The translations under genes were made by a program, and so were the position numbers. A DNA stretch of 64,000 bases from NCBI GenBank assembly GCA_034620365.1, contig JAQGEQ010000175.1:1364001-1428000 (forward strand). Direction: 5' to 3'. Below the pieces are notes generated by a model, which was not told the origin of the DNA, did no database searches, and was given only the letters and a program-made list of their open reading frames with translations. Source of the DNA: Pegea sp. RAD2-039 (Eukaryota > Chordata > Thaliacea > Salpida > Salpidae). Positions 29-52,749 of the stretch are shown one piece after another. Positions within the stretch are counted from its first letter, which is position 1. The number at the start of each line of letters is the position of its first letter.

Positions 29-2985
29 TTGGGTTCCAGCACTAATTCTTGCAATCATTGCTCGTAAATAGTTGGCTTCATTGCCTGGAAAAGGAGGATA
101 AGAAACAATTGGAGCATCCAAGTTACCAGTAAACATCTTCTTGATCTTTCTACTGATAGAGATTTGATCTGGTGTCACCGGAGGTAGCTTGATCCACTCT
201 TTTCCTAATCAAACAAATTATTTAGTGGTACAATAAAGATGTTGAGAAGAAAATACCTGGTTGACTGCAGACAAAATAGACAAATTTGTTGGTTCCAAAT
301 CGGTTTTCTTCTTTTGGAAGAACAGGAGGAGGTTTGTAAGTTGATTTGGGAAAGTCATCTTCTTCTGCTTCACCTTGAACTTCTTCTTCTTCTTCAACAC
401 TTTCAACTTTATCTTCATTCTGAACAATTTTTCATCAAAAATTTTTTCTTGTTTAATTGCAAGCGTCAAATTATTGAGAAATTAGTGAAACTGGTTATCT
501 AAACCTTTTCATTTTCTTCTTCTTCTTCCTCTGCATCTTCACCTTCTCTATACTGAACCTCCCCAATAATGTAATTTGAGCTTGTTCCTAAAATTTTACC
601 TGGAAATTCAGTCAGTTAATATATTAACTTTATATTATTATTTAAATTATTCTACCCCAAAATCGAACAGTTTGAAGAGGATTAGATTCTACAAGCTGGC
701 TGAGAGCAAGAAAGATTTTATAAGTCTCTTCACGCCCAAGACCTACACCAGCTTGCTCAAAGTTAAAAGCAAGATCCATAATGTCAGGGAGGGGTGAATC
801 TACTTCTTCGTCAGTTTCCTGTGGTTATAGAAACATTATATTTAGATTTTAAACAATTAAAGTTGATGTTTTTATAATTTACTACCCCTTATACCTATAA
901 GTTAACAAGTCAATGCCTAAAAGTAGAAAATTGTAATGAGTTCAGAGTGAGAAAAACAATAAAAAGATTTTTAAGAATATTTAAAAAGTCACAAAACTTG
1001 ATTTATATAATAATTGTCAATTTTATATTACAAGAAATTTGATTTCCATTATCAAAAAAGAGACATTAACAGTTAATTTGAAATAGAATATTTATTGATA
1101 TTAAAGTTAAATAACTAAAAATATTAACCATTTCTTGTTCTTGTTCTGAAACTTTGCTAAATAAACCCTTTTGATCCTGAGCGAGTTGATATTGAAGAGA
1201 AGGAACATACTCATCAATAATTCTATCTTTTTCAGAAGTGAATTGCTCATGCTTCACTTGGCGGCTTATATTTTCAAAAATCTCAGTAGGGTTTACAGGG
1301 CGTTCATCAAACAGTTTTTTCAACACATTTGTCAAATGATCATATCTAAAAATAAAAATCGTAAATAATAAGTAAATTAAGTACTACAACTATACAAACT
1401 TACAGATTGGGTTGAGAATCAGTGCTAGATGTCAGGTATGCTTTTGCATTTATAATAGACATTTCTCTTTCACTAACATGTGTACCATCTCCACCAGCCT
1501 CACCTGAGTTCATATCACTTTCTTTTTTATCAAGCATACCGCTATTTAAATTTATATTTATGATCCTAATCAACAAATCTTTCAATTTAGCATCATCAAA
1601 AATAAAAATATGATAAATTCAAGTTACTTATTCAAAATTATTTATATTTATACCAAAATACCCACATAAGAAAGAATAAAATATATTGATTGAATTATTT
1701 TTCATCTTTATAAATACAAAATTGTCATTATTTTACCCGCTAATATCTTACAATAACAAAGTGAATAAAGAATAAGAAGCTTTGACTATCAACTAAACTC
1801 TCTGTTAAGCCTTTACATTAAACTTTCATTATTTCTTTTTATCTTTTATATTTATCTCACTCGAAACTAAAAAAAACTATAAATAAAAGTCACCTTCATC
1901 ATCATCATCACCAAAACTGTCTTCCTCACCAAATCCTTCAACAATGATAAGATTAAAAATTAATAAATAAAAAAAATAAATAAAACTATAACTGATATTT
2001 TTATATGAGAATAAAATACCAAGTTTTTTTGTTAATGATTATGAATAAAATTGAAACAAAAATAACTATATAAGCATTCCTCACTAGCTTCATGAGTTTA
2101 ACTTTCATAAATAAATTATTTTCAGTAAATTTCAATTTCTACAACCTACAAGTATCTATAACAGCACTTGAAAAAATGTATACTTTTAATTCCAACAAAT
2201 ACTATCTAAGTCTCTGCTTCTATTATACTTAAAAAACTATCCATAAATCTCACACTAAAATTACCTTCTATTTCAATCTCATCACCGGCATTGTCTAAAA
2301 TAGTATTGATAACTTCTTCAGCACCATGCTCTATGACAACTTCACTAGTAGCTGTATCTAAAATAGTTTCAACTACTTCGCTAGTAGCTTGTTCTAGTGC
2401 AGTAAAAAAAGTTTCACTGGTAGCATTATCTGTTACATTATTAATTAGCTCTTGCACAATCTGTTCTGAATCATCTTCAGCATTATCATCTGTTTCTTCA
2501 TTTCTGGTATTACCATCTTCAGTTATAGCTTGTTCTAAGTTATTATTGTCAAGACTAACTCTACCTTCTGTAGCATCTTGTTCTAAGTTATTATTGTCAA
2601 GACTAACCCTACCTTCTGTAGCATCTTGTTCTAAGTTATTATTGTCAGGACTAACTCTATCTTCTGTAGCATCTTGTTCTAAGTTATTATTGTCAAGACT
2701 AACCCTACCTTCTGTAGCATCTTGTTCTAAGTTATTATTGTCAGGACTAACCCTACCTTCTGTAGCATCTTGTTCTAAGTTATTATTGTCAAGACTAACC
2801 CTGCCTTCTGTAGCATCTTGTTCTAAGTTATTTATATTTTCTTCATCATCATTAATAGCCTGAACATTTTCTTCATTTTCATCATTAGTGTTTAAATTGT
2901 TTTCATCATTGGTGTTATTTTCATCATTCTCTTCTGCATTTGACTTTATCTCATCAGAATCTTTAGAAGGATCATCTGAATTCAT
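29..2985 (-). CDS. RSPH4A: Radial spoke head protein 4/6 homolog (RSPH4A/RSPH6A-like), 3' end beyond window
   Basis: This encodes a structural protein of the radial spoke head of motile cilia and flagella. Exons read on the minus strand are 2985-2265, 1935-1894, 1521-1404, 1345-1129, 818-656, 599-505, 419-257 and 204-29. Phases agree at every junction, giving about 565 residues before the gene leaves the window after an AGTQ sequence; the family normally has roughly 200 more. Diagnostic stretches are [16 protein letters not shown] followed by [11 protein letters not shown] (1345-1129), [20 protein letters not shown] (818-656), [21 protein letters not shown] (599-505) and [19 protein letters not shown] then [15 protein letters not shown] (204-29). 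The first exon is very acidic and carries seven 16-residue repeats, in keeping with the low-complexity N-termini of this family. The weakest joins are the 42-nt exon 1935-1894 and the acceptor at 1522-1523, which lacks a pyrimidine tract. Assignment to RSPH4A rather than RSPH6A cannot be made. Confidence 0.88.
2531..2832 (-). repeat. 48-bp tandem repeat coding a 16-residue acidic unit
   Basis: Six complete units and part of a seventh lie in the first exon of the radial-spoke gene. The unit encodes [16 protein letters not shown], with L/P exchange at position 14 and one G/D exchange. Substitutions between units are few, so the array expanded recently and remains in frame. The reverse strand is also open here, but only because the 48-bp period preserves whatever frame is open. 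Confidence 0.95.
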
Positions 2986-5815
2986 TTCAAGTTTATATAA
3001 AACTCGTATATGTTAAAAATCAATATCGAATAAAATAATTATAAAAATTTATTAGTGAAAAATGATCGATTACAAAAATAACGTTATATCTCTTTAAGCA
3101 TTTATATTTAAAGTATCATGAGCCTAGATATATAAACTTTGACAAAAATGAATTCGTATCACTAATAGCTTGAGATGTTGTTATAACGACAGTATCAATA
3201 CATGACAAGGACACCTAGTGTGAAGTAAAAATGTCCACAAGTCAAATATTCTGTTAACTACCCAGTATATATATAATTTAAAAATTGCTTTCAAAGCTAA
3301 TTTTACTTTTAATAGTGATATTAATAATATTCTAATATAATTATTAATAACAATGTAAAATAAAGAAATATAGCTTAGTAATTTTACGAAATTATTGTAT
3401 ATAATATTGTTAAACTACTTAATGAATATTTATTTTTTTTAATTAAAAAAAAATTATGTGAAAAAACTTAGCCTACGTTTCTTTTAAATCTGCAAAAAAG
3501 TTGTAAAGACTTCACATATCTATTATACGATAGTTTATATAGGCTAGTTCTAAGACGATAAAAATTGTTGCGCAGAAAATTTTTTTTCCACAAACTTTAC
3601 AGTTATAATGATATGCTTATGACAACAGTAGACTGTGGACCTCTTCTGCATGGGCAACGACTTCCATAATTTCTACGTGACCTACAAAATAGCCAATCTT
3701 GGCCGACGCAGGCCCTGCTACTCTATCAGAAAATTACTAGAGTTTCTTAGAAGTACACATACTATTTTCGATGTGCCTATTCTTGAAAACTGGCTCAGTG
3801 AATTCATTTTACATTGCCAAGCAAAAATTGTATCTTGAAGATAGACGTCGTTAAAACATGTTTTTCAAATCAAGATATGGTATTGTATTAAGCAAAGAGT
3901 CTTATAAAACAAAGGGCGAATCAGCTGATTAAGCCTTTATTCAAAGTACTTTGTCATATATGAAAGTTGAATCAGTTTTGCAGGCAGGACAATATTACAG
4001 ACTTATTTGAGAGTCACACAAGCTTTTTTTTCAAAAATTAATATAAAATGTACTGATAGAAACTGATTAATCATTTATTCACTGATAATTGAGTCTCACT
4101 TTATAAAACCTTTACAAGTATAGCTTACTGTTTTAGACCATATAAATGTATGCAAAATCACATTACATCACATCAACAATGTGCTTTTATAAATATTGCA
4201 CCTCTCTAATATTAACCACAAGCACCAACTATTCTGTTTTTACAGTGTAAAACTTAAAATTTGAAAATTTACATCAAATATTTCACTTTGGACTTATACT
4301 TTTGCAGAACGTAAGTAAAGAAGATATTTCAACAACAATTGTCCAGTTGCAACTCATTTTACTATTTATATTTGCAACCAATATAGTTTCACCAGAACAT
4401 CGCACAAGATAATAATTTTATTATTATATTGCTATTATTATGTTGCTATTATATTTCATCTGTGACAATAAATAAATTGATTCGAATACATTTTAATTTG
4501 TTTAAGAATAATCTTAGGGGAAGATTAATCTATAGATTCTTTAAAAGACTTCGATATAAAAAAATGCTTAATATGCAAAGATCATTATTTAAGTTTGATT
4601 AATTATTTTCAATATTCCTATTTTAAATGATAAATGATAAAAATGGTTACATAACATACATCAAAGTTTATTTTTCTGAATTTTGGTACTCCCCCAACAA
4701 TCATGCCTGTCTTCACACCACTTTGTTTTTCAGGTTTCTTTCTTAATTGTTCAAGTCTACATCTATATCCTTTGTTTAATGTCTTTGTTTGCCTATTTTT
4801 AATTTGATCTTTATTCTTTGAATGATATTATCGAAAATTGCTTTCTCTGATTTTAAACAGTTCTTTATAATTTTTTTGTTAATTAAATCATTTTATCTAA
4901 CTTGATATAGTATACTTTTATATATTAATCTACATTATTATTTATAAATTGTTTTGGATTAGTTTTCATCGTTTTTGTATAAATTTATGTGGAACTGAAT
5001 TATAGTAAGTACATTTTTATTTATAAAAATATGTCTGATATAGTTTCTTTTAAAATGTATAAAATATAATGTCATTATAAAAATTTATAGAATTGTAAGT
5101 TTCTAAAGAATTTAATGTAGTAAAAACATATTTTGTATAAAAATTTAGATTTCATATCTATTTGATTTGCATGAATTCTAACTTAAGAATAATTTTAGAA
5201 AGTAACCTTTATGTTTAATTAAAAATTTAAACTTATACTTGTTATTAACATATATTTTTTTACCTTTAATATGTTTATTTCTTACGTTGTCAATTATAAC
5301 AATTTTTAAGAATCGAAAAGTATTTTTATCAACTTTAATAGTCATACTATAAATATGTGACCTTATTTATAGTTTAAACTTGTTTAAAAAATTAGTATTT
5401 AGAGTATTTTTTAAGTTTTACTTTTGTTAGTAATGTAGGATTTCTGAACTAATTTTCAGCTTATATTTTATTATAAAAAATATTTTATTTATCTATTTCA
5501 TTCATATCTGTTTTCCAAATGATTTTATCAATTAAGAAATTATAAAAAAAACTATTTGATAATCATTAGTCATATCTTAATTATTTATCAAACATTAAAA
5601 ATAGTTCATTTGTTTTTCTTTCACTTGAATCTCATAAATTTCTTAATAATTTTAATTTATTTATCAAAGCAAATTATAATTAGATCTTAAAACAGTTATT
5701 TACAGATAACTATAAAATATCATTTTAAGCTACCATGTCATATTTTTTTATAATTTTTACTCAAATTTTTTTATAGATAACCCTCTCATTAAGGTTTAAG
5801 ATCATTTAATTTGCT
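2986..5815. other. Intergenic region between divergent genes
   Basis: No coding exon is recognised. The sequence is A+T-rich apart from one more GC-rich block at 3630-3730 that resembles the 3' part of the SINE at 8632-9030. It must hold the promoters of both the radial-spoke gene (leftward) and NUB1 (rightward). The sequence shows no element that locates either promoter. Confidence 0.6.
3630..3730 (+). repeat. Fragment of a dispersed repeat related to the 3' part of the SINE at 8632-9030
   Basis: The stretch around ATGGGCAACGACTTCCATA and the following block ending in a GGCCGACGCAGG-like segment match, with scattered substitutions and small gaps, the segment 8945-9020. No tRNA-like head precedes it, so it looks like a truncated copy. 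The short open frame of 67 codons here is not a gene. Confidence 0.45.
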
Positions 5816-7774
5816 ATGAGTGGTTTTAAAGCTTCTCCAATGAATAGTTTGATCTTATCTAAAGTTAGAGATGCCATCAAAAGTGAAAGTATAAAACTTT
5901 GGTTAGAACCTTATACTTTAAATGATTCTGATACAGCTTTTGATGAACTTAGTGAATCTTTGAGCGTTAAGTTAAATCTGTGCAAAGAAGATATTCTTTT
6001 GTGTTTAAAATCATTACAGAAGCATTCAATTGAGAAATTGGAACAAAATAATAAGTTTAAGAATGAAGGTATTGCCACTTTACTTTTAAAAGTTTCTCCT
6101 TATGATGAAAGTAATCAAATCAAGTTTATAGAAACAAAGCTTGATATAACAGTTGAAGAATTCGTTGAAAATGTCAAAACTAAACTTCAAATTACATCTA
6201 CACATACTGTTCGAAAAGTTGTTTATTCTGGTAAAATTCTCAACATGAAAAAAACTTTAAAAGATCAAGGCGTTCTGCATAACAAGCCAATATTATGTAT
6301 GATAGAAACATCTAATGAAGTCACAAAGATGAAAGAAACTGAAAAAATTATGGAAGAGTTCAAAAGAACAAGAAGAGGTGCTGAACTGTTTGCAGGAGCA
6401 AGTACATCATATGATGCTCAGATAACAGATCAAAATGGAAGAACAATTGATCTTCCAAAAAGTGAAAAAGAATCTTTAGTTTTAGCTTTAAGTATTCATA
6501 AGCATGGACAGGTTTTTCTGAAATCAAAAGAATATAAAAATGCTTTGATCTTATTGTTAGAAGCTGATGAAGAATATAAGAAATGCCGTGGAATGATTCT
6601 AAAAGTTGTAGACAATTATGCGATTTTACAGTTAGATATTTCATGGTGTTATTTGCGAATGAAAAATTTGGATGCTCTACCAGATGTTTCTGAAAGATTA
6701 AATATGAGCGAGGAATCTTTCAATAAAACTTATGGTAGCAATTTACAAAGGTTGTATGCTTTGAAGGGTAGCACTGGTGAAGAAATTGCTCAGTTTGTTC
6801 GCTTGTATACTTTACAAGGAGTTGCTGCTTTTCATAAAAATCAATTTGATCTTTCAAATCAATTTCTGAAGAAGGCTCAGGGTTATTGTAGTGCATTAGA
6901 AATTGAAGAAAAGGATTTGTTAGAAATGTTACAACTTGGTTTTGATTCTGAAGAATCTAAAAAAGCTCTTAGAGCTTCTAATAATGTCTTAGGAAATGCC
7001 ATTCAGTTTGCTTTTGAAAAACGTGAAGAACAAAAAAAGATTGAAAAAGAAGAATCTATTAAGGATGAAAGAAGACTTTTGAAGATTAAGCTTGGGAAAT
7101 GTTCAAATGGTGATTATGTTGATATTGATGCATACAATAATATTGTCACAAATTTGGGATATGATGAAAAGATAGTAAAAGTTGCTCTCCAAAAATATAA
7201 TAATGATATAGTTCAAGCCCTTCAAGCTCTTCAAACTCAACCTGAAGTTTTGTTGGAAGCTTCTAGCAAAAAAAGTATTCCATCTGTTCTAAAAGCACAG
7301 GTAGTTGATAAAAAAGATTTTTCTACTATTTTATAGTTGAAACAATTAAACTAATTGTTTATTTTTCAGTTGTTATCCCTTGGTTGGAGTAATCAAACAA
7401 TCAAGCATTGTCAAGATATTCTTAAAGATGACTTTGAGAAGACATTAGAAGGACTACTTGCTGATGATACTGAGAAAGGAGTTATGCTGAAACAGCTACT
7501 AGGTCAACAGAAAGATATATTTTTACCAAAGAGCTCAGATAAAATTGATGATTTGAAATTATGGCTGATGTTAAATGGTGAGACAATTAGTCCAAAGTTA
7601 AACAGTTTGTTGCAGAAACTTATGAGTTCTATATCTTCTAAAGTACATGATCAAGAATGTATGGAAAATTTAGCAAAATCATTAAATGATAACACTACTT
7701 ATGATGATAAGTTGAGTCTTATTGAAGAAACAGAATACATTAATGAATATTTGGCATTATTAAATAGTTTGTGA
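5816..7774 (+). CDS. NUB1: NEDD8 ultimate buster 1 (NUB1)
   Basis: NUB1 delivers NEDD8- and FAT10-conjugated proteins to the proteasome. Two exons, 5816-7300 and 7370-7774, join in phase 0 to give 629 residues, close to the usual 600-615. Residues 86-164 form a ubiquitin-like domain, containing the VRKVVYSGKILNMKKTLKDQG segment. Residues 210-345 match the NUB1-specific helical region, with the family motif LQLDISWCYLRMKNLD. Three UBA domains follow at about 366-402 (LQLGFDSEESKKALRA), 441-472 and 496-530 (LLSLGWSNQTIKHC). The C-terminus ends in the conserved INEYLALL-type sequence. The intron lies exactly at the start of the third UBA domain. An acceptor-like site at 5775-5776 suggests a 5'UTR intron. 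The first AATAAA downstream is at 8415-8420, implying a long 3'UTR unless another signal is used. Confidence 0.95.
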
Positions 7775-8631
7775 GCATTTATGCAAAATTCTCTTTCTCT
7801 GCCTAAAAATGTATTTTTTTTATTTCCATTTTCTACAAAAACATTTTCTAGAATTTATCTAATTCACAATGATCATTTTGTTCAAACTTTTTCTTGTTTA
7901 AAATGTTGTCTTCTGTTCGTGTTTAGAAATTATTTAAATCTGTTTATTGTCTATCCAATAAGTTCTTGCTTCTGTTGTTGAAATACAACCAATCATATTA
8001 TCAATAATATCTTGATATGTGACAAAAACTATTAAATTTTATTATGAGCTCAGTGAAATCCAATCATAACTGTTATTTATAAGAATATCAACTTGAAAGT
8101 CTTTTGCTTGAAACTTATCTCAGAAGTAAGATCTAACCGGACCTTCAGATGATGCGGAAGAAATCCAAAGTAGCTCTGAATTAGGTCTTGCAAACATTTT
8201 ATATTCTGTAAGAACTTTATGATTACTTAAGAGCCTAATTTAACTGAAATCTTACTCTTGTAAGTCATCATAACTGTGCTTGTAGGAAAATGATTTTTGG
8301 TAAAATCATTGAAAGAATTTAATTTAAATGTTTGATGCTTGATTATTTAGCTAAGTTTTAATTTTAAACCTATTTATAAACCGATTTTAAATAGATATTT
8401 TTGTTAGATTCAATAATAAAGTTAAAGATTGCAAAATACTTATTCCACTATTATTGATTTTTATTTATTAAACTAATTTAATGAATCAAATTAAGTGAAA
8501 AATAAACATTTAAATAACCTTTATAAGTTTGATTCTGATAAAGATTAAAAATTCATTAAAAACAACTTTCATAAAATAACGTTTATGTTTATATAAATTT
8601 CATTTAAATATTTTATCAAATAAACACATCA

Positions 8632-11270: not shown

Positions 11271-11626
11271 AAAAATTGAAGTCTGTAAATCTTCAAATGC
11301 AAAGCACTTAATTAATCTTGAATAATATTTGTTTTAGAGGTTATCCAAGTTATAAGTCAAATAGCTAATGCATAAAATATAAATCATCCTAAACATATTG
11401 TCACAAAAGCTCATGTAATCGCTCCTATGCTTGAAACTAAACAAATTTTTCTAATTCTTTTTAAATAAGTTTCATTCTTAATCAAATACTTTTTTATCGT
11501 AATCTTTTTGATTGAAATTATCATTATATTGTGGTTTTACTAAAAGCTATATATACACCATACCAGTAGCACTATCTTTACAAATCGAATTAGAATTACT
11601 TAATAGTGTTCTTGTAAAATTGAAAA

Positions 11627-14600
11627 ATGGTATCTACCAAAAGAGTATTTTTAACTCTTCTACTTATCAATGTCTTTGCTGTTCAATCTTTTATTATTGA
11701 GGTAAGATTTAGATCTTTTAGATATTTTATTGCTATTATTTGAAAAATCTTTTTGAAATTGATTAAAATTAATTTAAATTTATTTTGAATAATATTTTTA
11801 GCCCAATAACCTAAATGGTATCTTGATTTTGAACACTTAGTATGTATTTATAGTCAGCAATTTAAATATCCTAAAAAATAATAACACAAATATTTTACAT
11901 TTTTAGATTGAAGAACAAGAAATAAAACGATCAACAAGATCAGGTAAAAACATCTTAAATGTTTCAAAAAGTTGTGTTAAAAATCATTGCTTTTTATTTA
12001 TCATTTTTTAAACTTGCAGTTCCTTCATGTAGAGGGTCACACGGTGAACCTATCAGTACAGGACCATTTGAGAAGCCAGGAGATTGTAACAACTTTTACC
12101 AATGTGGCGCAGGTTAAAAGACAGAGTTGATAATTAAATTATAGGTTATGTGCTTTTAATTGTGATAAGATAGTAATTGGAAATATAAAAATTCCGTTTT
12201 TCGAATTTTATCTTAAGACAATTTAACAACAATTTTTAAATGACTAGAAAATTCATTTTTGTTCTTAAATAGTTAACGATTTTTAAAGGAATCTTGTACA
12301 CAATGCCTTGTGCTCCTGGAACTGCTTTCAATCCTGCTCTTGGGGTCTGTGATTGGCCTTACAATGTCCCAGGATGCGGTGGCGGAAGCAGTGGAGGCAG
12401 CAACGGAGGTGGTCACGGTGGAAACAAACCTCCTTGTGGTATATCTTATTAAAATTATTTCATCTTTTATTAAATCACCTTACTTTCATAAAGTTAGAAT
12501 TATTCAATTTAAGTTTAGATCGTAACTTTATCCTCAGAATATTTTGCAAGTTAGTTCAAACAATTTTTTTAGATCATCAATGCTCTGATCATAATGGCAA
12601 CCCAACCAGTGGACCACCATTTGAGAAACCAGGAGACTGTGAACACTTTTATCAATGTGGATGTGGTACGTTTAAAACTATTTTTCAAATTTACAATTGA
12701 AAACAAACATTTGTATTTCAAAAGGTATTCTCTACACAATGTCCTGTGCTCCTGGAACAGCTTTCAACCCTGCCTTAGGAGTTTGTGATTGGCCTTACAA
12801 TGTTCCCGGTTGTGGGGGAAATTGTGGCTGTTCCCATGGTAATTATATCTTTCATTTAAAACCAGCAAACCTTAAAAACTATTTTTTTAAATCAGAAACA
12901 GAGTAAATTTTAATATAAAGTGGAAACAGAATTGGTTTAGATAAAATAAATCATTAAAAGAGATTTAAAAATACTTTTCATAGTAGCTTATAGTAGCTTT
13001 GTGAGGAAGATTAAATTTAAGATTATTAAATGAAATGATTTATGATTACAAAAGCCTTCAATTATTTTCGGTTATCTATATACGCGCTGAACTAAAATAC
13101 ATTCATCGTTTATTTTAATTAAAAGCCAATTATTTGAGACTGAGTAACATCTTTCACAATTGAATAAACAGATAGAGAATGTCAAGATTCAAACGGAAGA
13201 CCAATTAGTTCATGTCCAGAAGCAATTCCTGGAGATTGTAAACATTATAAACAATGTACAGCAGGTCAGTTTATTCGTATTCAACCGACTTAATCAGGAA
13301 TTGTTGATAATTTTTTGTTCTGTTTTTATAGGAGAACTTGTGATTGGTGAATGTCCTGATGATTTAGTTTTCAACCCTGACACTGCTGCCTGTGATTGCC
13401 CAGAAAATGTTGTAGGCTGTGGTGCAGGAGATAATTGTACTGGTGTAGAAAGAGGTGAGATAAATTAAGAGCTTATCAAAATATCCAAAGATGTTTTTCA
13501 ATAGTATCATTTTAGTCTATCTATGAAATAGTTTTATTTCAAAGAAATATTTTTTTAAAAAAGTAAATAGTTTTTTTAACTTTTGTATAATATATTCATA
13601 CCACAAATTCAATAGATGTATGCCATGATTCTTATGGAAGACCTTTGAGTACAGCACCTTTTGAGAAACCAGGAGATTGTACCCACTTCTACCAGTGTGG
13701 AGCAGGTACGCTCATACTTTTTAATAAGCTTAAATTTTGTCAACAAAAACCTTTGTAAATTATTTGGAAATTTTTAGGAATCCTTTACACAATGCCATGT
13801 GCTCCTGGAACTGCTTTTAATCCTGCTCTTGGAGTCTGTGATTGGCCTTATAATGTTCCCGGATGTGGAAATTGTTACTCAAAATCAAAAAGCAATAGTT
13901 AGTTCAACAAGTTTTAACTTGTTCACAATCTTTAACTTTTTGAAACTAATCTCCATAATTAAATTATGTAGTTTTTATTTAATTTTTTAATCTTTTTCTT
14001 TATTTACAGACGTTTGTTTAGGACCTAACGGTTATCCTATTAGTGGTGATCCATTTGAGAAACCTGGAGATTGTACTCACTTCTACCAATGTGCAGCAGG
14101 TAGGTTATTCAAAACATCAACTCATAGCTTGGAAATTACTGCTATTATTAAAATAGTTCTATTTTTATACATTCAATCAAATTAACACTTTTTCAAGTTG
14201 AAATAAATCATCAAATCTTGACTACGTATAAAATTATTTTGGAAATTAGCAAAAAAATAAATTACAAAATATCTGTTAGTCATTTCTGATACTTTTATTC
14301 AGGAATCCTATATACAATGCCTTGTGCACCTGGAACTGCTTTCAATCCTCGCATAGGAATCTGTGACTGGCCCTACAATGTCCCTGGATGTGGAGGTCAA
14401 GATCCTGGATGTAGAGGTTAGTTTGTTTTATTTTTACTTTTAAAGATCAAAGATACTTTTATGGAAAACAAAAATACAGAAATTTATTCTTGTACCTGGA
14501 TAAGAAAAACTTTTTATTTTCTAATTAAATGCTGATTACGTTTAGATCAATGTCATGATGCTAGTGGACGACCAATCAGTACTGGTCCATTTGAGAAACC

Positions 14601-17600
14601 AGGAGACTGTGGCCATTTCTACCAATGTGCTGCCGGTAAATGCGATCAGATATCAATATGTTCTTTTAATAATTACACTTTTGTTTAGGAATCTTGAAAA
14701 CTATGCCTTGTGCTCCTGGAACTGCTTTTAACCCAGCTCTTGGAGTTTGTGATTGGCCTTACAATGTTCCCGGATGTGGTGAAAGTCATCATGGTATGAG
14801 ATAAACTATCTGATTAAGTTTAAGGATTTTGATATTCAAAAAAATATTTCGTATAATTAATAAATAAATAAATAATAATACAAATAAAATATGCAAATGT
14901 GAAATAAGTTAAGACTTACTTGATAAACAATTGAACATGACTTAAAGGACCTTGTACACTCACAAATGGTATTCCAAGAACAACCGGACCTTTTGCTATT
15001 GCTGGAAATTGTACTCACTACCAAAGATGCAATTCAGGTAGATTTGATTTTCATTTGGTTATAGTTTAATAATCACAACATCATAGCAGCAACTTGTGCA
15101 ATACAAAACAAACTTAATGTGTCTCCTGTATCTTGATTTTCAAGAAAATATTATTTTCAGGAAACGTTCAAGAACTGTGTTGTCCTGATGGAACTGTATT
15201 TAATCCAAATACTGGTTTGTGTGATTGTCCTAATAATGTACCAGATTGTGGATGTGATGTTGAAGAACCAAACTATGGTTAGTTATATGATTCAAGTCAT
15301 TTTATTGAATACTCATAAATCGAAATTTCTTATAAAAGATCCAGAATGTATTGATTGCTATGGAAATCCAACTTGTGAAGGACCGTTTGAAAAACCCGGA
15401 GATTGCAACTTGTACTACCAATGTGTTAATGGTTAGATAATTACTTTTGTTAATTAATTTTCTATTTTAAGAAGATTTTTGAAGAATTCATCAAAAACTT
15501 GTTACGTTTCACTTTTGTATTAAAGTGATCTCTTACAAATAATACCAAAAATACTTTTTCATTGAACTATAAGTAATTTTTCGTAAAATACAGGGTACTT
15601 GGAAGTGATGAGATGCAAAGAAGGAGAATCATTCAGTCCTGAATATGAATGCTGTGTTGATTCTTGGAGAGTTCCAGGATGTGGGTGTGGATGTGATAAT
15701 GGAAACATATGTGAATCTCCTTATGGTGATTACAAAAATGTTTTTGACTAAAATATACGATAATATTTCATATAAAAAGAAACATTTAGTGCTAAAGACT
15801 TTAGAATAAATTAGTTCATTTTTTAAGATGATGAATGTGTTGGATGCAATGGTGAACCAATTGACAAAGCACCATTTGATGAACCATCAGACTGCTGTAC
15901 TTACTATCAATGTTGTAATGGTAAGTTGAAACAAACAAAACTAGATTTGTTACAAGTAAAATTTTACAATATGTAAACATCATAAAAAAACAAAAGATGA
16001 TGACAATTTTCTACATTTCCAGGAAAATTGGTGGAATTTAAATGTCCAAATGGCCAAGCCTTTGATCCTGACTGTGGACACTGTGTACCTGACTATTTAG
16101 TACCAGGATGTGGATGCAATGGAGGATGCCATGCACCACCAGGTAAGACTTACTCGAGTGTTGTAGATCAAATTAACCAAAATGATTTTTGTTTGATTAA
16201 AAAAATGTTTTTAGAATATTTCAACAACTAATTATTAAAAAAGCTTAAAAAAAGAGATTAATTCCTAAATTACTTTAATAATTTTAAATAAAAGAAATTA
16301 ATCGATGTACTAATCATTTTTGATCATTATTAAGATCAATGCCATGATGCTAATGGAAGACCTTTGAGCACTGAACCATTTGAAAAACCTGGAGATTGCG
16401 ACCATTTCTATCAATGTGGAGCAGGTTTGTTTAAAAATACTAAGTTGAATTGATATTATAATCATAATTTGCTTTTCAGGAATTCTTTACACAATGCCTT
16501 GTGCTGAAGGAACAGTTTTCAACCCAAAATTGAAAGTTTGTGATTGGCCATACAACGTACCTGGATGCTATAACCCAACACATTGTCGATTAAGTAATTA
16601 CAATTAGTTATATGATTCAGATATCTTATCAAACTTTTCAGCTTTCAAAAAGCTTGTTGTCGATTAGAACTCGATAATTTTGTTTAATTAATTAAACTTA
16701 AATGAGTTTGAATTTTGTCATTTAAATTTCAATTATTCATTTTGAAAAGACTTTCCCTTAAAGTATTTCTTTGTTTCAATTTGTCTTTTTGTTATTTATG
16801 AAAAGTTGAAAATTTTTGGATGAACTATCTGATTATTAATAGTTATAACTTTAGCTATCTACAACAGGCTACTAAACAATTGATTGTATATATGTCTGAA
16901 TAACTTGTTTGTCGTTTATTAGATCCAAAATGTGTAGAATCAGATGGCCGACCAAAAAGCACAGATCCATTTGAAGAACTTGGACAGTATTTCCAATGTG
17001 GTGCTGGTGGGTTGAAAATGTTTTGAACAAACTTTCATTGAATTTTAAAAATAACTTCAATATTTTCAGGAATTTTAAGCTCAGTTCCTAAATGTGGAGG
17101 AAATACTTGTGGTATGTTCCGTATATTTGATTACTTTTCTATTTTTGATTATTTCTTGATTTCACTTGATAATTTCTAAAATTTTCAGACGGCCCATGCT
17201 GTGATAAATATGGTCAACCAATAAGCACAAAACCATTTCAAATACAAGGAGATTGTAATTGCTTCTATCAATGTTCATGTGGTTAGTAAAACTTCTTTGT
17301 TATTTTAGTAAATGGTAAAAATAATTAATTCAAATTTACTTTTCAAAAATTGTGAAACAATAAAACTGGATGTATCAACAGGACATTTGAGAACAGAATG
17401 TTGCCCTGATGGCTTAACTTTTAACCCTGTGACTGGTACATGTGATTTTGACCACACAGTTCCAGGCTGTGGCTGTGCACCAAATGGTACGTACAAAAGA
17501 TTTGAGAAACTTTTATGACATCAAATTTTGTTTCTTATTAACTGATTATTTATAAGATATTTGCCATGGATCCAACGGAGAACCAATTTGTGGTGATCCA

Positions 17601-20600
17601 TTCCCACTTGAGGACAATTGTACTCATTATCAGCAATGTGTACAAGGTAACGTTTTGTTGACTAAGTTTTTAGAGAAATAAAAATTTGAATAATTTGTTT
17701 ATTTTTTGTTTGTTAGGTGAACTAGTCATCAGAGCATGCCAACCTGACTTTGCTTTCAGTCCAGAACAAGGACAATGTGTACCAATGTGGGAAGTTCCTG
17801 GATGTTATCCTACTTGTGGTGGACATTGTGGATGCTATGGTTAATTACTTTTATTGTTTGTTCATTGTAATAATTGAATATTTCAAATTGAAATTGCTCA
17901 TTTCAGTTTTCAAGAAATATAATTTGATTACAATTTATTGAAATTTTCAGACCCAGAATGTGTTGATGATTGTGGAAGACCTCTCAGCAACATCACATTC
18001 CCTATTCCTGGAGATTGCAATGATTATCTTCAATGTTCATGCGGTGAGCTTTTTTTAACATATTTTAATTTACATATAATATATTCTTATGATATTATAT
18101 ATACTAATTAGATGCTTTCTAGTTTGTAAAACTAATTTCATATTTGTTGCTTCTACAGGTAAACTTCAACGAATGTCTTGCCAACCTGATCATTCATATA
18201 ATCCTGATACACATCAATGTGATCATTCTTATAATGTATGTGGATGTTGCATTCCAACATGTGGTATGTAAAAGAATTATATTTAAATATCATTTTAAAA
18301 ATCTTTAAAATATCACCAAAAAACTATTTTAGTTCTTCTATAAAAGTTATTCAAATTAACCCTAACCAAAATAAGCTATTAGAATCTTATCTTTGAATAG
18401 ATCCTTGTCACACTGAATGTGGAAAACCAATTTCAACCGGTCCATTCGCTAAACCTGACAGCTGCTCGTATTATATCTGTACTTGTGGTAAATAATCTTT
18501 CTGTGGCTAAGTAGTGGTTTATATAATTTACACAAATATTCAATTTGCAAATATTTTCAGGTGAATTGATTGAGAAAGAATGTCCAAAGGGTTATGCTTT
18601 CAATCCTGATACTCTAGTTTGTGTTCCTGCTCATTACGTTGAAGGATGTTATGATGAGACTTGCCATTTACCACCTCCAGGTAAACTTCAATACTGAAAT
18701 ATAAATGAAAAAAATCTCAATTTGTTGTATCAGATCCAGAATGTGTTGATGACTGTGGTAATCCTATTCCATCTGGAAGATATCCGATCAAAGGAAATTG
18801 TAGCTTTTACATCGAATGCTGCGGAGGTAAAATAATATGTATAAAATAAAACTTTACACGAGTTTCTATTCTTTTGTTAAATTTACTGACGTAATGTTTA
18901 CGGTTTGAAGGATACAAGACAGTTGTTAATTGTGGAGATGGTTTTGCTTACAACCCAATCACAGCCTTATGTGATTTCGACTATAATGTTGATGGTTGTT
19001 GCACACCAAGCTGTCCAGGACATTATGGTAAATATTGAACAATTTATTTAGTAGATTAGTTTTTACAAAAAAAGTTCTTTTAAAGATCCTTGTTGTGTCG
19101 ATGAATGTGGAAGACCAATCAGCAAAGAACCAGAAGCGATTCCTGGTGACTGTAAACATTTCAAAACATGCTGTGGAGGTTTGTGAAATAATTATTTAAA
19201 ACTTAAAATTGCTGTAATAAGAAAGTGGTTTTAGTCAGTAATAAGCTAAAATTCTTAAACATTAAAATAAATATTATTTACAGGTAAACTTGTGATAAGT
19301 GAATGTGGTGATGGTCTAGCATTTAATCCGGAAACAGGATATTGTGATCATGCTTATAATGTTCCTGGATGTTATGAATGTCCACCTCATTATGGTAACT
19401 TGACAAACTTTTATTTAATTTTTCAATGATTGTTTCGTTATTATTTTGTCAACTAAATTATGATTTGACTTTCTAGATGCTTGTTGTGTTGATGACTGTG
19501 GAAGACCAATTAGTAGAGGCCCGGAAGGTACTGGAGATTGTAAACACTATACAATTTGCTGCGCTGGTAAACTGATATCATTGAATGAAATAACTAAATA
19601 ATTACTTGTATTGGCTTCTAGGAAAATTGATTACAGAGTCATGTCCCGAAGGAACAGCTTTTAATCCTGAATCTGGTCTTTGCGATAACCCATTTAATGT
19701 TCCTGGTTGCTATGTCACACCGAACCCTGGTTGTGGTCTGTAAAATTTAAAAAAATAGAAAACAGTTTTAATAATCCATTTTCAAATTTTTCAGATATTG
19801 ATTGTCAAGATGATTGTGGGCGACCAATCAGTTCAGGTCCTTTCCCTATTCCAAATAATTGCACTCATTTTTATCAATGTGCTTGTGGTAAGTAGATTGT
19901 TCATATGTAGAGATAAATGTTAAGAAATTAATTATTTCTATTATTCAGGTGATTTGGTGGCTTTCTCTTGTCCAAATGGTCAAGCTTTTAATCCTGATAC
20001 AAATGAATGTCAATGTGCTTTTGAAGTTTGTGGTTGTGAATATGTTGGTAAAGAATGTAACCATCGTCCAGGTAAGTTCATTTTAGCTATTTTGTGAAGT
20101 TTCAAAGTTTGTTTCAAATCTGAATGTCGCTTAATGAAAATGGTTAAAAGAAAGTTTATTTGTTACAATTGAAGCAACTAATTATTTGTATATTTACTTT
20201 TTAGATGGACCATGTGTAGACAAAAATGGAAAACCTTTGAGTACCGAGCCTTTTGAAAAACGAGGAGATTGTGAACATTTCTATCAGTGTGGAGCAGGCA
20301 AGTTTAAATTTTATTAAAAACTGAAAAATTTGGTAATTTTTTTGCATCAGGTGTTTTGTATACTTTATCATGTCCATCTGGCCTTGTGTTCAACCCAATT
20401 TTAAAAAGTTGTGATTGGCCCTATAACGTTCCCGGATGTTGCACAAACACTCGTGCTGTTTACTTCTTTGGTTAGTTGATTCAGTTAGATTACTGTTGAT
20501 AACCTACTTTCAAATCAATATAATGGCTTTACTATTTGTTTTAGATACAATGTGTGTTGATTCTACTGGTAGACCAAAGAGTACTGATCCAGTAAAAGTA

Positions 20601-20883
20601 CCAAACAAATGTGATTCATTCCAACAGTGTGCTGCGGGTTAGTTGCTGTTGATAAGAATTATGTGAAAAAACTAAATTATTTACAAAATATATGTTCATT
20701 AGATTTTAATTATAGAACTTAATGTTGTTTAAACTATTTTTTTCAATTATAAATCAGTAAGTCCGCATTTAACTCTAAAATTTCAAAATATCAGGAACTC
20801 TGTTTACACGAACTTGTCCTGAGGGAACATTGTTTAATTCTGATAAAGGATTTTGTGATTGGGAAGAAAATGTGATTTGTTAA
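11627..20883 (+). CDS. Secreted protein with 21 chitin-binding CBM14/peritrophin-A domains
   Basis: Forty-four exons encode about 1468 residues. Exon 1 (11627-11701) gives the start and a signal peptide ([20 protein letters not shown]). Exon 2 (11907-11943) adds a short basic segment ending KRSTRSG. Exons 3-44 form 21 exon pairs, one CBM14 domain per pair. The first domain has the spacing CX18CX5CX10CX12CX8C, typical of peritrophin-A. Every intron after the first is phase 1, and every exon from 3 to 43 is a multiple of 3 nt. The protein should be secreted and bind chitin multivalently, as in gut-lining or extracellular matrices. No enzyme domain, transmembrane segment or mucin-like linker is seen; the only spacer is a Gly/Ser/His-rich stretch in exon 4. 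Domain 11 is degenerate. The intron 20298-20350 begins with GC. The last domain ends at its sixth cysteine, directly before the stop. Name and tissue cannot be inferred. Confidence 0.93.
16923..17111 (+). other. Degenerate 11th CBM14 cassette
   Basis: The A exon is 84 nt and reads [13 protein letters not shown] where its neighbours have FEKPGDC plus about three more residues, so the second cysteine is lost. The B exon is only 42 nt, reading [15 protein letters not shown]. An internal deletion removed cysteines 4 and 5 and the FNP and CDWP blocks. Splice sites and frame are intact, so the remnant is still translated as a linker between domains 10 and 12. Confidence 0.85.
20298..20350 (+). other. 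GC-AG intron
   Basis: The donor after exon 41 reads CAG/GCAAGT, the form known for functional GC donors, and the acceptor is TGCATCAG. It joins the two halves of domain 20 in phase 1. No usable GT donor preserves the frame nearby. Confidence 0.85.
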
Positions 20884-20954: not shown

Positions 20955-20960
20955 AATAAA
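20955..20960 (+). promoter_or_regulatory. Polyadenylation signal of the chitin-binding gene
   Basis: AATAAA, 72 nt downstream of the stop codon, is the nearest canonical signal. Confidence 0.6.
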
Positions 20961-22776: not shown

Positions 22777-24910
22777 CTACCGTTTCCTGCAATGGTTCTT
22801 GCGATGACGATCTAAATTATTTTGTTGCCCAAATGCATAACCACACAAATGGCAAATATAGGGGCGCTCCTACAATAAGCGAAACGATTAAGATGATTAA
22901 AGTTGTAACTATAAGATGTCTTACTTTGTTGTGGATATTACGAATGTGTCGTTGTAAATTTGATGAGATTGAAAAGCCACGGTCACAGAATTTACAGATG
23001 TATGGTTGCTCTCCTGTGTGAGTACGCTCATGCCGGATCAGATTGGCGCTTCTTGGGAAATCTTTATCACAAAATCGGCAAATATATCGATTTTTCTTCT
23101 GATTAATTTGATCTTGGTTGGTGATCTGGGAGTGATTTGTAGGTTGATTGAAGCGTTTTACTTCAAGTTGATGTAATGATCGATTATTGAGTATATTTTC
23201 ATGTATTTTGAAACAATTATTTTCTTTCGCAACCATTTTATCTTCCCAATCTTCATGATTAGTGTCTTCGTATGCCAAAATTTTAGTAGAAAGATCCAAA
23301 GGTTCAACTTGATCAGCAACTTGATCAGCAACTTTTTCGCTTTTTTCTCCCCTTATTTGTATTTGAGTTTTATCAGAAGGTATCGCCATTTTGTTTAGTA
23401 CGTTCGAATTTTCTTGAAAGAATGTTTGCGTAGAAGCATCACTTTTTTTCTTCCAAAGATTCTCATAAGAAACAGAAATATTCGATGGAATAAACTTCAA
23501 TGAGTTCCCATACACAACTACAGGCCCAGCATCATTAGTTGAATCGCTTTTAATGGTCTCAGCAGCTTCTAATATTGCAGTAACATCAGGCTTGGAGCAT
23601 TGAACTTGGGCGTCAGCGCTTGTGTACTTTTGAGAAAACTTATTCTTTTTAGTTGCCTTGTCAGCTTCAGATACAACTTTTTTTAGTTGTTTCAAACTTT
23701 TTTCATCATCTTGTTTGTGATCTGTTTAAAATATATTTTATAAAACTTTTTGGTGATGGTAGATAACGAAATTATTTTGGGCTTTAGATTTTAATACACA
23801 TAAAAGCTTCGATAACATAAAAGATCTTTGTGGAAAAACACTTGACACAAAATATCAAACTGACCTTTTATCATGGTGTTGTATGAATTCGGCTTATACC
23901 TCTTTGAAAGCCCCGAACTTCTGCCAAATTATTGAAAGTTTTGTGAGTTTCTCAGTAATTATTAGAAAAACTTTCCACTTTGCTGAATTTTTTTCTTATA
24001 TATTCAGCTCAATAAATTTTCTTTTATATTATACACAACTTGAAATATTTACTGAAAACTTTATTTTGTAAGAATGTCTTACCGATCATAAGATAACTTT
24101 TGAGTGCTTGCAGTCGCCTTAAAAGTTTTCATAACTTTTTCTTGATTCTTATGTGACACTAGCTGACAATCAAGACTCATTCTTTTATGGCGACAAAGAT
24201 TACTCGACTGAAAATCAAAATGTTCAGAAAACACAAATCATCAAGGACAGGATGATTTTGAAATAGACCAGCCAGTACCTGAGTGTATGATCGATTACAA
24301 CCTTCGCAAGCATATGGTTTAATGCTACTGTGAGTGTGTTGATGCTGTTTCAAACCACTAGATGTCATAAATCCTTTTCCACATTCAAGACAAATATGAT
24401 TCAATTTGTAATTTATCTCGCTGGTGCTGGATTGAGAGACTTCCTGGTCATGAAAGGAATTAGTTTGACTTCTTTCTTTTCTTGGCATCAGACTAACACA
24501 ATTCATCTTTCTGTTGGAAAGAATTTGACGTTTCAAATCGTGACAAGGCTTAACATTTATCTCTAAAGAATTTACGATATTATCTTTAATTGCTTTTGAA
24601 AGTCTTACAAATTGTATTTAGTAATTAAGGAGATAAAAGTATCAGAACCTTTTTTGGAACATACACCACGGGGTCGGTGCCTTTTCAAAATTATCCTCCA
24701 ATTTGGCTATCTACAAACATTTATATTTTTATAAGATAAATAAAGAACATAAAAATATGTTTCTAAAGATAAAAAAGTACAAACCGCTTTCAATTTTTCT
24801 CTGTTTATTATTTCATAATTCCGTTGAAAAATATTTCCGCAAAAATACGATGGAGCTTTTGGTGGTATGCAGCGAGTCGGTTCCAATGAAGAAGTGTTCA
24901 TGAAATTCAT
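22777..24910 (-). CDS. MECOM: MECOM/PRDM16 (EVI1, hamlet, egl-43) family zinc-finger transcription factor, shortened
   Basis: Exons 24910-24785, 24710-24649, 24603-24279, 24207-24083, 23920-23865, 23721-22925 and 22869-22777 keep phase throughout and give 527 residues; human EVI1 is about twice as long. Zinc fingers: ZF1 132-154 ([18 protein letters not shown]), ZF2 160-181 ([17 protein letters not shown]), ZF3 444-466 ([14 protein letters not shown]), ZF4 472-495 ([15 protein letters not shown]) and ZF5 501-523 ([18 protein letters not shown]). ZF1-2 match part of the N-terminal finger cluster of EVI1 and ZF3-5 match its C-terminal triplet almost residue for residue. PLDLS at 372-376 is a CtBP-recruitment motif also used by EVI1. 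No PR/SET domain is encoded. ZF2 lacks its last histidine in the normal position, though a cysteine follows. An in-frame stop precedes the ATG and an acceptor TTTTTGCAG lies upstream, so a 5'UTR exon is likely. It should be a nuclear DNA-binding, CtBP-dependent repressor. The intron 24604-24648 is only 45 nt and is the least certain junction. Confidence 0.85.
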
Positions 24911-40172: not shown

Positions 40173-43100
40173 ATGTTGAATTATTATAATCAATCTTCTG
40201 CGGAAGTGAAACTTGATTCTTATATATGTGACTTAAACTTGGACATTTCAACTGATGGTTACAGTTGTACTCCAGTGAGTAATGATGGATTCTGTCATAT
40301 GTGGGCTGGAACTAAAGCTAATTTTGGCATAAGGTGAATTGATTTGGATTACATTTATATTGAAGAGATAAAAATGATGGATTCTGCTCACTTAAATGAG
40401 GGAATGATATCTGATAGTATTAAATAAAGTATTGAGGTTAAATCAATGTTGATAGATATTAAAAAAAAAATTGTTCAGTTATTTGAAAGTTTATGATTTA
40501 TCTGAATAGTAATCACATCAACTTTAAATTATAAAAATTAAATATATCTACATTCTCCAAATAAAAAAAACTCAATTAAATAAATAAGAATTGCAAAAAG
40601 TATTAACAATTTACAACAATAAATATGAAAATATTTGAACAAATATTACTGAATATATGAAAAACTAACTGATCTGTAATTTAATATGATTGAAAACTAT
40701 TCCAAAGTTTTTTAAATTGTTTAACAACAAAAAGATTTACAAATATTTCTTGCTTCGTAGAGTTTATAATGTCAGATTTAAACTATTTTGTTATTAATTA
40801 GTTTAAAGTGAATAAAAGAACAATATTAGGTTGGGACTGATCAAAACTCCATTTTAAACTAACTACTCAAGAGCTATTTTCAAATTATTAACTAAACACA
40901 GCAACTTAACATGGCCAGCTGTTTTGAATGCAAATTTCTGGTTAATATCTATATGCTTTATAAGGCAGGAATCGTGTGTATAGTGTGCAGGGTTGTAAAA
41001 CATTAATCACTTTGCATAATTTAATTGAAAATTGACAACTTAAATGTGTGTAGATCTGGAAAAGTGTGCTACGAAATTAAAGTTGCGGAATACAACGAAG
41101 TCGCTGATGACACACAAAATGATATTCATTCTGTACGCGTTGGGTGGTCTTCTGAAAAAGCCATTTTACAGTTAGGTGAAGACGAAAACTCTTTCGGATT
41201 TGGAAGCGCAGGTTATGTTTCTCATAAAAGAAATTTTTCCAGTTATGGAATTAAATTTGGAAAAGGTAAGTTTAATTTTTCAAAGCAAAAGATTTTGAAA
41301 CAAATTATGGTTTGTTTATTTGGCAGCTGCTCTATCGTAATTACATCTGAATATTATGAGCTTATAGATCATTACAATTTTTAAGATAACAAGACACTAA
41401 TGACTTTTTGACTGAAAATAAAAATCTTTATAAAAATATTTTAAATAATTAACAGATAAAATCATTACACTTAACAACGTGATAAAAGACATTTTTAGTT
41501 TTACATAAAATCTTACAGGCGATGTTGTCGGTTGCTATTTGGCGATTCAATCTGGTTGGCTTTCAATATCCTATAAGATGAATAAATGTTATCTAGGAGA
41601 TGCTTTTAAAATGAGATGGGTATCAGATGAGGTAAATACAGTAAAAGACATATTTCTAAATCATTCTTAGCTTTCATTCGCTACAAGCTCATCTTCCTCA
41701 ATTATTATTTCAATAAATATTAGATGATTAATCACTTAATCAATTTCTATTTTCTTCAAGGCTTTGTTTCCTCACATACTGACGAAAAATTGTAAAGTTG
41801 AAGTCAATTTCGGTCAAGCACAATTCCCCTATTTCCCAATAGAGCCTCCATATAAACTTGTGGGTCACATACCTCGCCAGGCCTTAATCCCTTCTATAAG
41901 GCGTCCACCAACCCAAGCTGATTGTGAAATTATCATGTTAGTAGGATTGCCTGGAGTTGGTAAGTGTCCATCAAGTTGGCTTCAACTCTTCAATTACCAG
42001 CAACATCTTCAGGTAAAACTACATGGGCGAATGAGTTTGCCAAAAACCACTCAAGCAAAAAGTACTTTGTTTTGGGAACTGACTCAGTCATTGATAAAAT
42101 GAGGATCATGGGGAAACCCCGTCAGAATAATTTCACAGGTTTTTCGATTAGTTTTCTAAAATAATTCACTAAACGATAAACTAATAGGTCAATGGGAGAT
42201 TTTGATTAAACAAGCAACTGACTGTTTCACAAAACAGTTGAAAAAAGCAGCATTAAAACCTCGGAATTTAATTCTTGATCAAACAAATGTATATGCTGTA
42301 GCTCGTGAAAGGAAAGTTGCTCAATATCGTCAACGTGGGTACAAGGTATATTCCCAAGTTACATTTCCATCATCAACTTTTTACCGGTTTGTTTTGAAAC
42401 TTCAGCAAATCAAATGTATGGTCCTGGTCCCAACTGATGAAGAGATGATCAGAAGATCAATTGCGAGAACTCGTGAAAATGGAAAAAATGTCCCACTAGC
42501 CGCTATGCTTGATATGAAAGCAAATTTTACTCTTCCTCAAGAAAATGAGGGATTATTTGATAGCATCACGTTTCTAGAACTTCAACGTGAAGATGCACAG
42601 CGATTAGTTACTCAATACAACAAGTAATCACTTGAATTGATCTTTTAATAATTTCAAATAACATTTTAAATGATTTTCAGTGAAGCGTATCAAAAAGGCC
42701 ACGTGGCAAACATCTATAGATCGATTAAACAATCAACTACCGACAAAAGGTTACCATTTTTTAAATTAGAGTTTGTCTTAAAATGAATTTCATTATTTAG
42801 ATCTTCCGAAACCCAGCAGAGCCAATCTAGCCTCCCCAACAAGACTTTTGCTAACAGAAATCAACTTAGTACTCCTTACCAGATCAAACCTTCTTCACAT
42901 AATCTTGTGGATAAGCAAGACCCAAATTTTCGCGGTGTCAGAAAAATGTTGAATGCAAATGAAGAAGCTTATAATCGAGAAGGTGTTGCTAAGCGATTTG
43001 AGACTTCAAATCAAACGAATGATGTGAGTAGAATTTAAATAGTTGCTTGTTTCCAGTTTTGATGTTTTGTTTTTAAATTTTAGGAATACTCATACGGTCA

Positions 43101-52645: not shown

Positions 52646-52743
52646 TTTAATACAACCTACACACCTAAAGTTACATTTAAATTATAAGAAAAACTATTTT
52701 CTATTACTTTAAACAACAAAAAAACTTTTATAAATTGATAAAG

Positions 52744-52749
52744 TTTATT
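52744..52749 (-). promoter_or_regulatory. AATAAA overlapping the WDR18 stop codon
   Basis: On the minus strand the sequence AAAATAAAC contains both the TAA stop (52747-52745) and an AATAAA hexamer (52749-52744). If used, the 3'UTR is only about 20 nt. Confidence 0.5.

Follow-up and report, generated by a model that had tools for sequence, protein, structure and literature searches.

An array of split-domain exon pairs in a salp genome that probably encodes a single long chitin-binding matrix protein

In a 64,000-nucleotide stretch of the genome of the salp Pegea sp. RAD2-039 (GCA_034620365.1, contig JAQGEQ010000175.1, positions 1,364,001 to 1,428,000; hereafter the window, C258:1364001-1428000 in the 105.7 Mb assembly), positions 11627 to 20883 of the plus strand carry small cysteine-rich exons that follow one another in pairs. 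Do these exons form one gene and, if they do, what would its product be? Our reading is that they probably constitute a single 44-exon gene, whose product would be a secreted matrix protein that binds chitin at several sites and belongs with the peritrophins. A preliminary description of the locus had proposed one long, signal-bearing chain made of two-exon, phase 1-1 units, and further copies elsewhere in the genome were found to keep such a chain as a single gene.

The gene model confirmed the 42 exons in 21 pairs, the limits of 11627-20883 and the 1468 residues of that description. It comprises a signal exon, a short exon 2 and then 21 pairs, each of a first (A) and a second (B) exon; the spliced frame of 4407 nucleotides (nt) has a single stop, and the hydrophobic N terminus, judged by eye, is signal-like. 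The point at which a pair is cut is constant, about three residues past cysteine 3 and ahead of cysteine 4, and this split holds, as had been proposed, in the 20 modules recognised as CBM14. All introns had been called phase 1, which is true of introns 2-43 (42 of the 43), so that every module is bounded by phase-1 introns, but not of intron 1, which is phase 0. Similarly, lengths divisible by three had been claimed for every internal exon; all module exons but the last have them, but exon 2, at 37 nt, does not. The introns measure 53-333 nt (median 100) and 42 of the 43 are GT-AG, the intron after exon 41, inside module 20, being GC-AG in the window. The donor of exon 38 is ambiguous as read from the sequence, with in-frame GT at 19730, 19733 and 19736, of which the last (19736) was adopted. 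When candidate exons, cysteine-rich and in phase 1, were coarsely counted, they filled 41 bins in the gene and 2 on its antisense strand, while four other equal-length stretches of the window, counted on both strands, gave 2, 5, 2, 1, 3, 5, 2 and 4. With 41 bins against 1-5 in the other stretches, the exon-pair array is not a chance occurrence.

Searched as a whole, the chain matched Pfam CBM_14 (PF01607) over 20 stretches (E 1.5e-201, 653 bits), and this was the sole Pfam family found in it at E up to 0.001. Taken module by module, 20 of the 21 scored above the curated cut-off (36-57 bits against 22.1), which rules out a failure of the profile on most modules. Module 11, which has two cysteines in its A exon and two in a B exon of 42 nt, gave no Pfam match at E up to 1. 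The chain had been portrayed as nothing but six-cysteine CBM14 domains; this picture stands as regards the family, but it overlooked the degenerate module 11, which has four cysteines, and the existence of two module classes (below), and exactly six cysteines occur only in modules 6 and 21. In the remaining 18 recognised modules the number is 7-12, and the protein contains 184 in all (12.5%). Six cysteines are in register in all 20 aligned modules, a set that module 11 lacks. In the division of the chain adopted here, which is arbitrary as to linkers, twelve modules have an odd number of cysteines, and these odd counts hint at bonds between modules or between chains.

All ten tryptophans (Trp) of the chain sit between cysteines 5 and 6. 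In eight of the 21 modules (1, 2, 4, 5, 6, 10, 20 and 21), here called the Trp class, the residue lies two positions past cysteine 5, and in modules 8 and 13 it lies four positions past. A human CHIT1 construct without Trp465 and Asn466 is described as losing chitin binding, Trp465 being proposed as key, and two disulfides of the CHIT1 domain as having equivalents in the other CBM14 structures compared (PMC4844120). Matched by eye, the Trp of the CDW motif in the eight modules appears to correspond to CHIT1 Trp465, and module 11 may retain the apparent partners of the two shared disulfides. The features of the gene are as follows.

11548-11555, plus strand: TATA-like box TATATATA, about 72 nt ahead of the start codon (consensus only)
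11627-11701, plus strand: exon 1 (75 nt) with the signal-like peptide, phase-0 intron after it; also in C123b, C123c, C123d, C189a and C197
11907-11943, plus strand: exon 2, 37 nt, short basic pro-stretch (..KRSTRS)
12020-12438, plus strand: module 1, Trp class (exons 12020-12112, 12289-12438)
12573-12838, plus strand: module 2, Trp class (exons 12573-12665, 12725-12838)
13172-13454, plus strand: module 3, no Trp (exons 13172-13264, 13332-13454)
13616-13897, plus strand: module 4, Trp class (exons 13616-13705, 13778-13897)
14010-14416, plus strand: module 5, Trp class (exons 14010-14099, 14303-14416)
14546-14793, plus strand: module 6, Trp class, exactly six cysteines, mosaic-looking second exon (exons 14546-14635, 14689-14793)
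14948-15277, plus strand: module 7, no Trp (exons 14948-15037, 15161-15277)
15339-15725, plus strand: module 8, 12 cysteines (exons 15339-15431, 15594-15725)
15828-16142, plus strand: module 9, 12 cysteines (exons 15828-15920, 16023-16142)
16335-16593, plus strand: module 10, Trp class (exons 16335-16424, 16480-16593)
16923-17111, plus strand: module 11, shortened, four cysteines, without Pfam match (exons 16923-17006, 17070-17111)
17189-17486, plus strand: module 12, cysteine-rich (exons 17189-17281, 17382-17486)
17557-17839, plus strand: module 13, cysteine-rich (exons 17557-17646, 17717-17839)
17951-18263, plus strand: module 14, cysteine-rich (exons 17951-18043, 18159-18263)
18401-18680, plus strand: module 15, cysteine-rich (exons 18401-18487, 18561-18680)
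18734-19027, plus strand: module 16, cysteine-rich (exons 18734-18826, 18911-19027)
19086-19394, plus strand: module 17, cysteine-rich (exons 19086-19178, 19284-19394)
19477-19735, plus strand: module 18, cysteine-rich, second-exon donor uncertain by 3 or 6 nt (exons 19477-19566, 19622-19735)
19795-20071, plus strand: module 19, cysteine-rich (exons 19795-19887, 19949-20071)
20205-20470, plus strand: module 20, Trp class, GC-AG intron within (exons 20205-20297, 20351-20470)
20545-20883, plus strand: module 21, Trp class, exactly six cysteines, stop TAA (exons 20545-20637, 20795-20883)
20955-20960, plus strand: AATAAA polyadenylation-signal-like hexamer past the stop (consensus only)

The genome itself offered a test of whether the array behaves as one gene. 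In 31 stretches, which are parts of contigs rather than whole contigs, eight further copies or part-copies were found on four contigs. C123 carries four (two of them complete, the other two truncated where the contig ends), C147 one that is likewise truncated, C189 two about 20 kb apart (the first complete, the second broken off in exon 2 by the end of the contig) and C197 one decayed piece. The exon order is common to all of these except C197, the degenerate module 11 included, and both module 11 exons are present in seven of the eight, the C197 piece again being the exception. The complete copies C123b, C123c and C189a keep all 43 introns, with GT-AG at every splice site from exon 2 on, and the signal-like exon 1 (ATG, 75 nt, GT donor) occurs in the same three as well as in C123d and C197. 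The five copies that were translated (C147 and C189b over the available part) have an open frame from exon 2 onwards. On C123 the copies (1-6k, 34-45k, 185-195k and 204-210k) are oppositely oriented and two are cut by contig ends, an arrangement that suggests an inverted-repeat array which the assembly did not cross.

The locus could instead be expressed as several shorter products, by way of alternative promoters, poly(A) sites or pair skipping, with the 1468-residue chain made rarely or never. With every module intron in phase 1 and every module exon but the last divisible by three, pair skipping would indeed keep the frame. Nevertheless, there is a single signal-like exon at the start and a single stop at the end, the short introns (53-333 nt) would leave little room for extra promoters, and the modules are coding in the translated copies and stand in the same order in every other copy except C197. 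We regard a locus of shorter products as improbable.

The single-chain gene is further favoured by the way in which the copies differ. The window shares 91% identity with C123b or C189a in exons and 69% in introns, and against the five translated copies the ratio of nonsynonymous to synonymous divergence (dN/dS) was 0.110-0.119, with dS 0.31-0.32; these counts leave out 12 nt that the copies have inserted in exon 4, as well as C123a, C123d and C197. All 184 cysteines and all ten tryptophans are kept in the three complete copies, compared with 1164, 1164 and 1165 of the 1259 other residues, and each complete copy carries one extra cysteine and one extra tryptophan that are absent from the window. 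The ratio of the proportions of nonsynonymous and synonymous differences (pN/pS) was alike for Trp-class (0.139) and other modules (0.136), the most changed modules being 6 (pN 0.099) and 10 (pN 0.088). Decay of module 11 was considered and rejected, since seven of the eight copies have its exons and the three complete copies all retain its four cysteines; in this module the window and C123b show 0 synonymous and 2 nonsynonymous differences, too few to measure selection. That the complete copies keep introns, frame, low dN/dS, cysteines and tryptophans supports one functional gene and is the best stand-in for transcripts at hand; as far as sequence comparison goes the chain was shown to be maintained as one coding gene under purifying selection.

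The same figures bear on a second alternative, in which the product would be a defence or recognition molecule whose cysteine-rich modules bind microbial glycans, and not a structural chitin linker. Chitin-binding domains do occur in the antimicrobial proteins tachycitin and mytichitin (PMC8878817) and in immune proteins such as the amphioxus VCBPs (PMC2632668), and the gene is multi-copy. However, a dN/dS of 0.11 and fully conserved cysteines give no overall sign of diversifying selection, even though modules 6 and 10 change most, and the chain is far longer than tachycitin in PDB (74 residues); a role in defence seems to us just as doubtful as the shorter products. Least likely of the three alternatives is that the copies are an assembly artefact or unmerged haplotypes, which would weaken the comparative argument: contig ends truncate two copies on C123 and one each on C147 and C189, and some copy pairs are 98-99.8% alike, but C123 alone holds four copies or part-copies at different places, C189 holds two about 20 kb apart, and the window differs from the others by a dS of about 0.31, in our judgement too high for haplotypes.

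If the array is a single coding gene, how did it come to consist of paired exons? Across 20 modules the distances among A exons and among B exons were correlated (Mantel r 0.66, 0 of 10000 permutations), a correlation that arises mainly from the Trp and non-Trp classes. A tree of B-exon cores from the window, C123b and C189a (19 modules, 11 and 21 left out) grouped 16 of the 19 by position; modules 2, 4 and 6 did not so group, with nil-to-low support for the placing of module 2. In the A-exon tree (18 modules, 11, 15 and 18 left out) 17 of 18 grouped by position, module 10 being the exception. B1 and B4 are 96.6% identical in C123b, 94.4% in C189a and 89.9% in the window, and window B6 is nearer to its own B4 (88.8%) than to C123b B6 (84.3%). 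Window B6 looks like a mosaic with a B1/B4-like middle part, in which either the window or the copy may have changed. Some of the modules, then, have probably exchanged second-exon sequence within the Trp class.

In the decayed C197 copy A1 is succeeded by a B1/B4 hybrid, by modules 5 and 6 and then by A2; module 1 thus stands next to module 5 without pairs 2-4, and the first exon of pair 2 comes after pair 6. The junctions lie in or beside second exons, and by eye this copy has an in-frame stop and a lost cysteine. In its stretch (L022, about 5730-8400) it is followed by unrelated, possibly mobile-element-like sequence. This dead copy points to pair-level recombination, as judged from its exon order. 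It had been suggested that any exon or pair could be duplicated, skipped or shuffled without loss of frame: pairs do seem to have been lost or moved in C197, but the shuffling of single exons as free units was rejected, because one exon would make up half a disulfide fold. As skipping a single exon, though it would preserve the frame, would remove half of the cysteines of the fold, only pairs are plausible as free units.

The phase-1 cut is not confined to this gene. A genome search for CBM_14 returned at least 119 matches, with 150 of 260 candidates scored, and most of these span profile positions of about 16-29 to 53, corresponding to the B exon. A second multi-copy cluster of CBM14 exon pairs lies on C100 (stretches between 176 and 383 kb), its pairs mostly about 1.0-1.5 kb apart. 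In this cluster 29 of 31 A-like donor sites run across about 100 nt into a phase-1 B exon, one of the two misses being near the end of its stretch, and the introns inside the domain are about 100 nt long. By eye, C6 shows the same phase-1 cut as the gene, C8 and C3 have a phase-0 intron immediately before cysteine 4, and C19 and C88 are without an intron between cysteines 3 and 4. A phase-1 intron universal to CBM14 was rejected on these grounds, and the phase-1 cut, as far as these exon readings go, is a property of some CBM14 genes of the genome and not of all. The C19 stretch (L037:889-1352) also carries, on its minus strand, three tRNA genes with equal scores and a spacing of about 196 nt.

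Among known systems the nearest likeness is to insect peritrophins, which are also secreted and have several tandem CBM14 domains with conserved cysteines. The window gene differs in its 21 modules, in the 7-12 cysteines of 18 modules, in the one shortened module and, presumably, in the intron inside every module. Proteins of T. castaneum have 1-14 ChtBD2 domains (PMC3504105), which agrees with the earlier remark that known peritrophins have fewer domains, although the statement that 21 modules exceed the Tribolium range is limited to that one survey; the moth protein LstiCBP has 8 domains, and a form of it produced in E. coli binds chitin (PMC4227266). The CBM_14 domains of amphioxus mostly lie in one open reading frame (ORF), several being divided between two, and VCBP exons have splicing frame 0 (PMC2632668); according to that account the amphioxus genes are a precedent for the split domain, with frame 0 in the VCBPs against phase 1 here. 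The accessible part of the open-licence PMC literature yielded no description of a two-exon, phase 1-1 CBM14 cassette. Against PDB sequences, module 6 gave 15 entries at E up to 1, chitinases and tachycitin included; it matched chitin binding beak protein 3 (PDB 7bwe, E 1.1e-6) and a 25 kDa polyphenol-binding protein (PDB 8in3, E 2.9e-12). These chains have 64 and 229 residues respectively, against 1468 for the window protein. The beak protein is presumably from squid. CBD-1 of the C. elegans egg vitelline layer is, like the window protein, a chitin-binding-domain protein, the two being likened by description alone. It reportedly contains about 12 CBM14 domains. CBD-1 is found at the oocyte and embryo surface and is needed for a properly formed eggshell (PMC5603424).

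What, then, would the protein do? Several intact copies have been retained in the genome, so that a genuine structural role in a coat that contains chitin is probable. Secretion, and binding to chitin by way of the Trp-class modules, may be inferred by analogy; the eight Trp modules, which lie towards both ends and near the middle of the chain, would hold on to chitin there, while the other modules, rich in strictly conserved extra cysteines, would form a disulfide-stiffened, perhaps interchain-bonded spacer, a role more conjectural than the first. The chain would in this way tie chitin fibrils together in an extracellular coat. The gene would have grown by duplication of the two-exon unit, and recombination between similar Trp-module second exons would still shuffle these exons and could delete pairs. 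The sequence could fit a gut lining as well as a cuticle, jaw, body coat or egg coat, and does not tell these apart. A chitin-containing lorica and mastax are noted in a rotifer paper (PMC5333405), and no description of a rotifer peritrophin was found in the accessible part of the open-licence PMC literature. The RR cuticle family (PF00379) had no match in the genome, in a search that matched no control either, and a search of the assembly for COX1 did not find it.

Several points weigh against this account, the whole of which is drawn from sequence. The Trp rule is carried over from one human domain by an alignment made by eye, CBM14 domains without that Trp may still bind chitin through other aromatics, and the extra cysteines could all pair within modules or linkers. 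In the 12 non-Trp modules taken alone the A and B distances are weakly correlated (Mantel r 0.26, 604 of 10000), so that whole-pair duplication is unshown for these modules. Nor do the second exons bear out exchange throughout: B1 and B4 of the window (89.9%) are less alike than each is to its C123b counterpart (93.3% and 91.0%). A stricter form of the proposal, in which the protein is a chitin staple with two functions, its Trp modules binding and its cysteine-dense block not binding but forming an insoluble coat network through interchain disulfides, with the Trp-module second exons adaptable by recombination and the cysteine block fixed, is put forward as a speculation of low probability.

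The surroundings of the gene are varied, in DNA of low GC content. At 2529-2832 a 48-bp tandem repeat (6.3 copies, 96% matches) lies inside an antisense ORF of 268 residues (2206-3012), which has a 16-residue repeat and for which Pfam gave nothing at E up to 0.01. The region 5810-7774, upstream of the gene, holds two ORFs, the first of which (5816-7333) has ubiquitin-like and UBA domains and which we take to be NUB1-like. Downstream, C2H2 zinc-finger ORFs occupy 22817-24617 on the minus strand, and 41740-54007 contains a series of ORFs, some of which match AAA_33, kelch and WD40 and others nothing. Apart from the gene itself, no part of the window was among the CBM_14 matches listed by the genome search (150 of 260 candidates scored).

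The kind of protein is known; what is unusual is the exon-pair design together with the dense cysteines. The locus is a clear example of repeats made of split-domain exon pairs in what is probably a structural protein, and a single genome contains eight more copies or part-copies of it. Its two module classes and conserved excess cysteines are the more interesting part of the gene, and the copies hint at two regimes, one in which a few chitin-binding second exons exchange sequence and one in which the exons of the cysteine-rich block stay in place. Should this division of labour be true, it would show in what way one and the same coat protein of an animal can glue chitin and build a disulfide network, and the role of each module would become testable.

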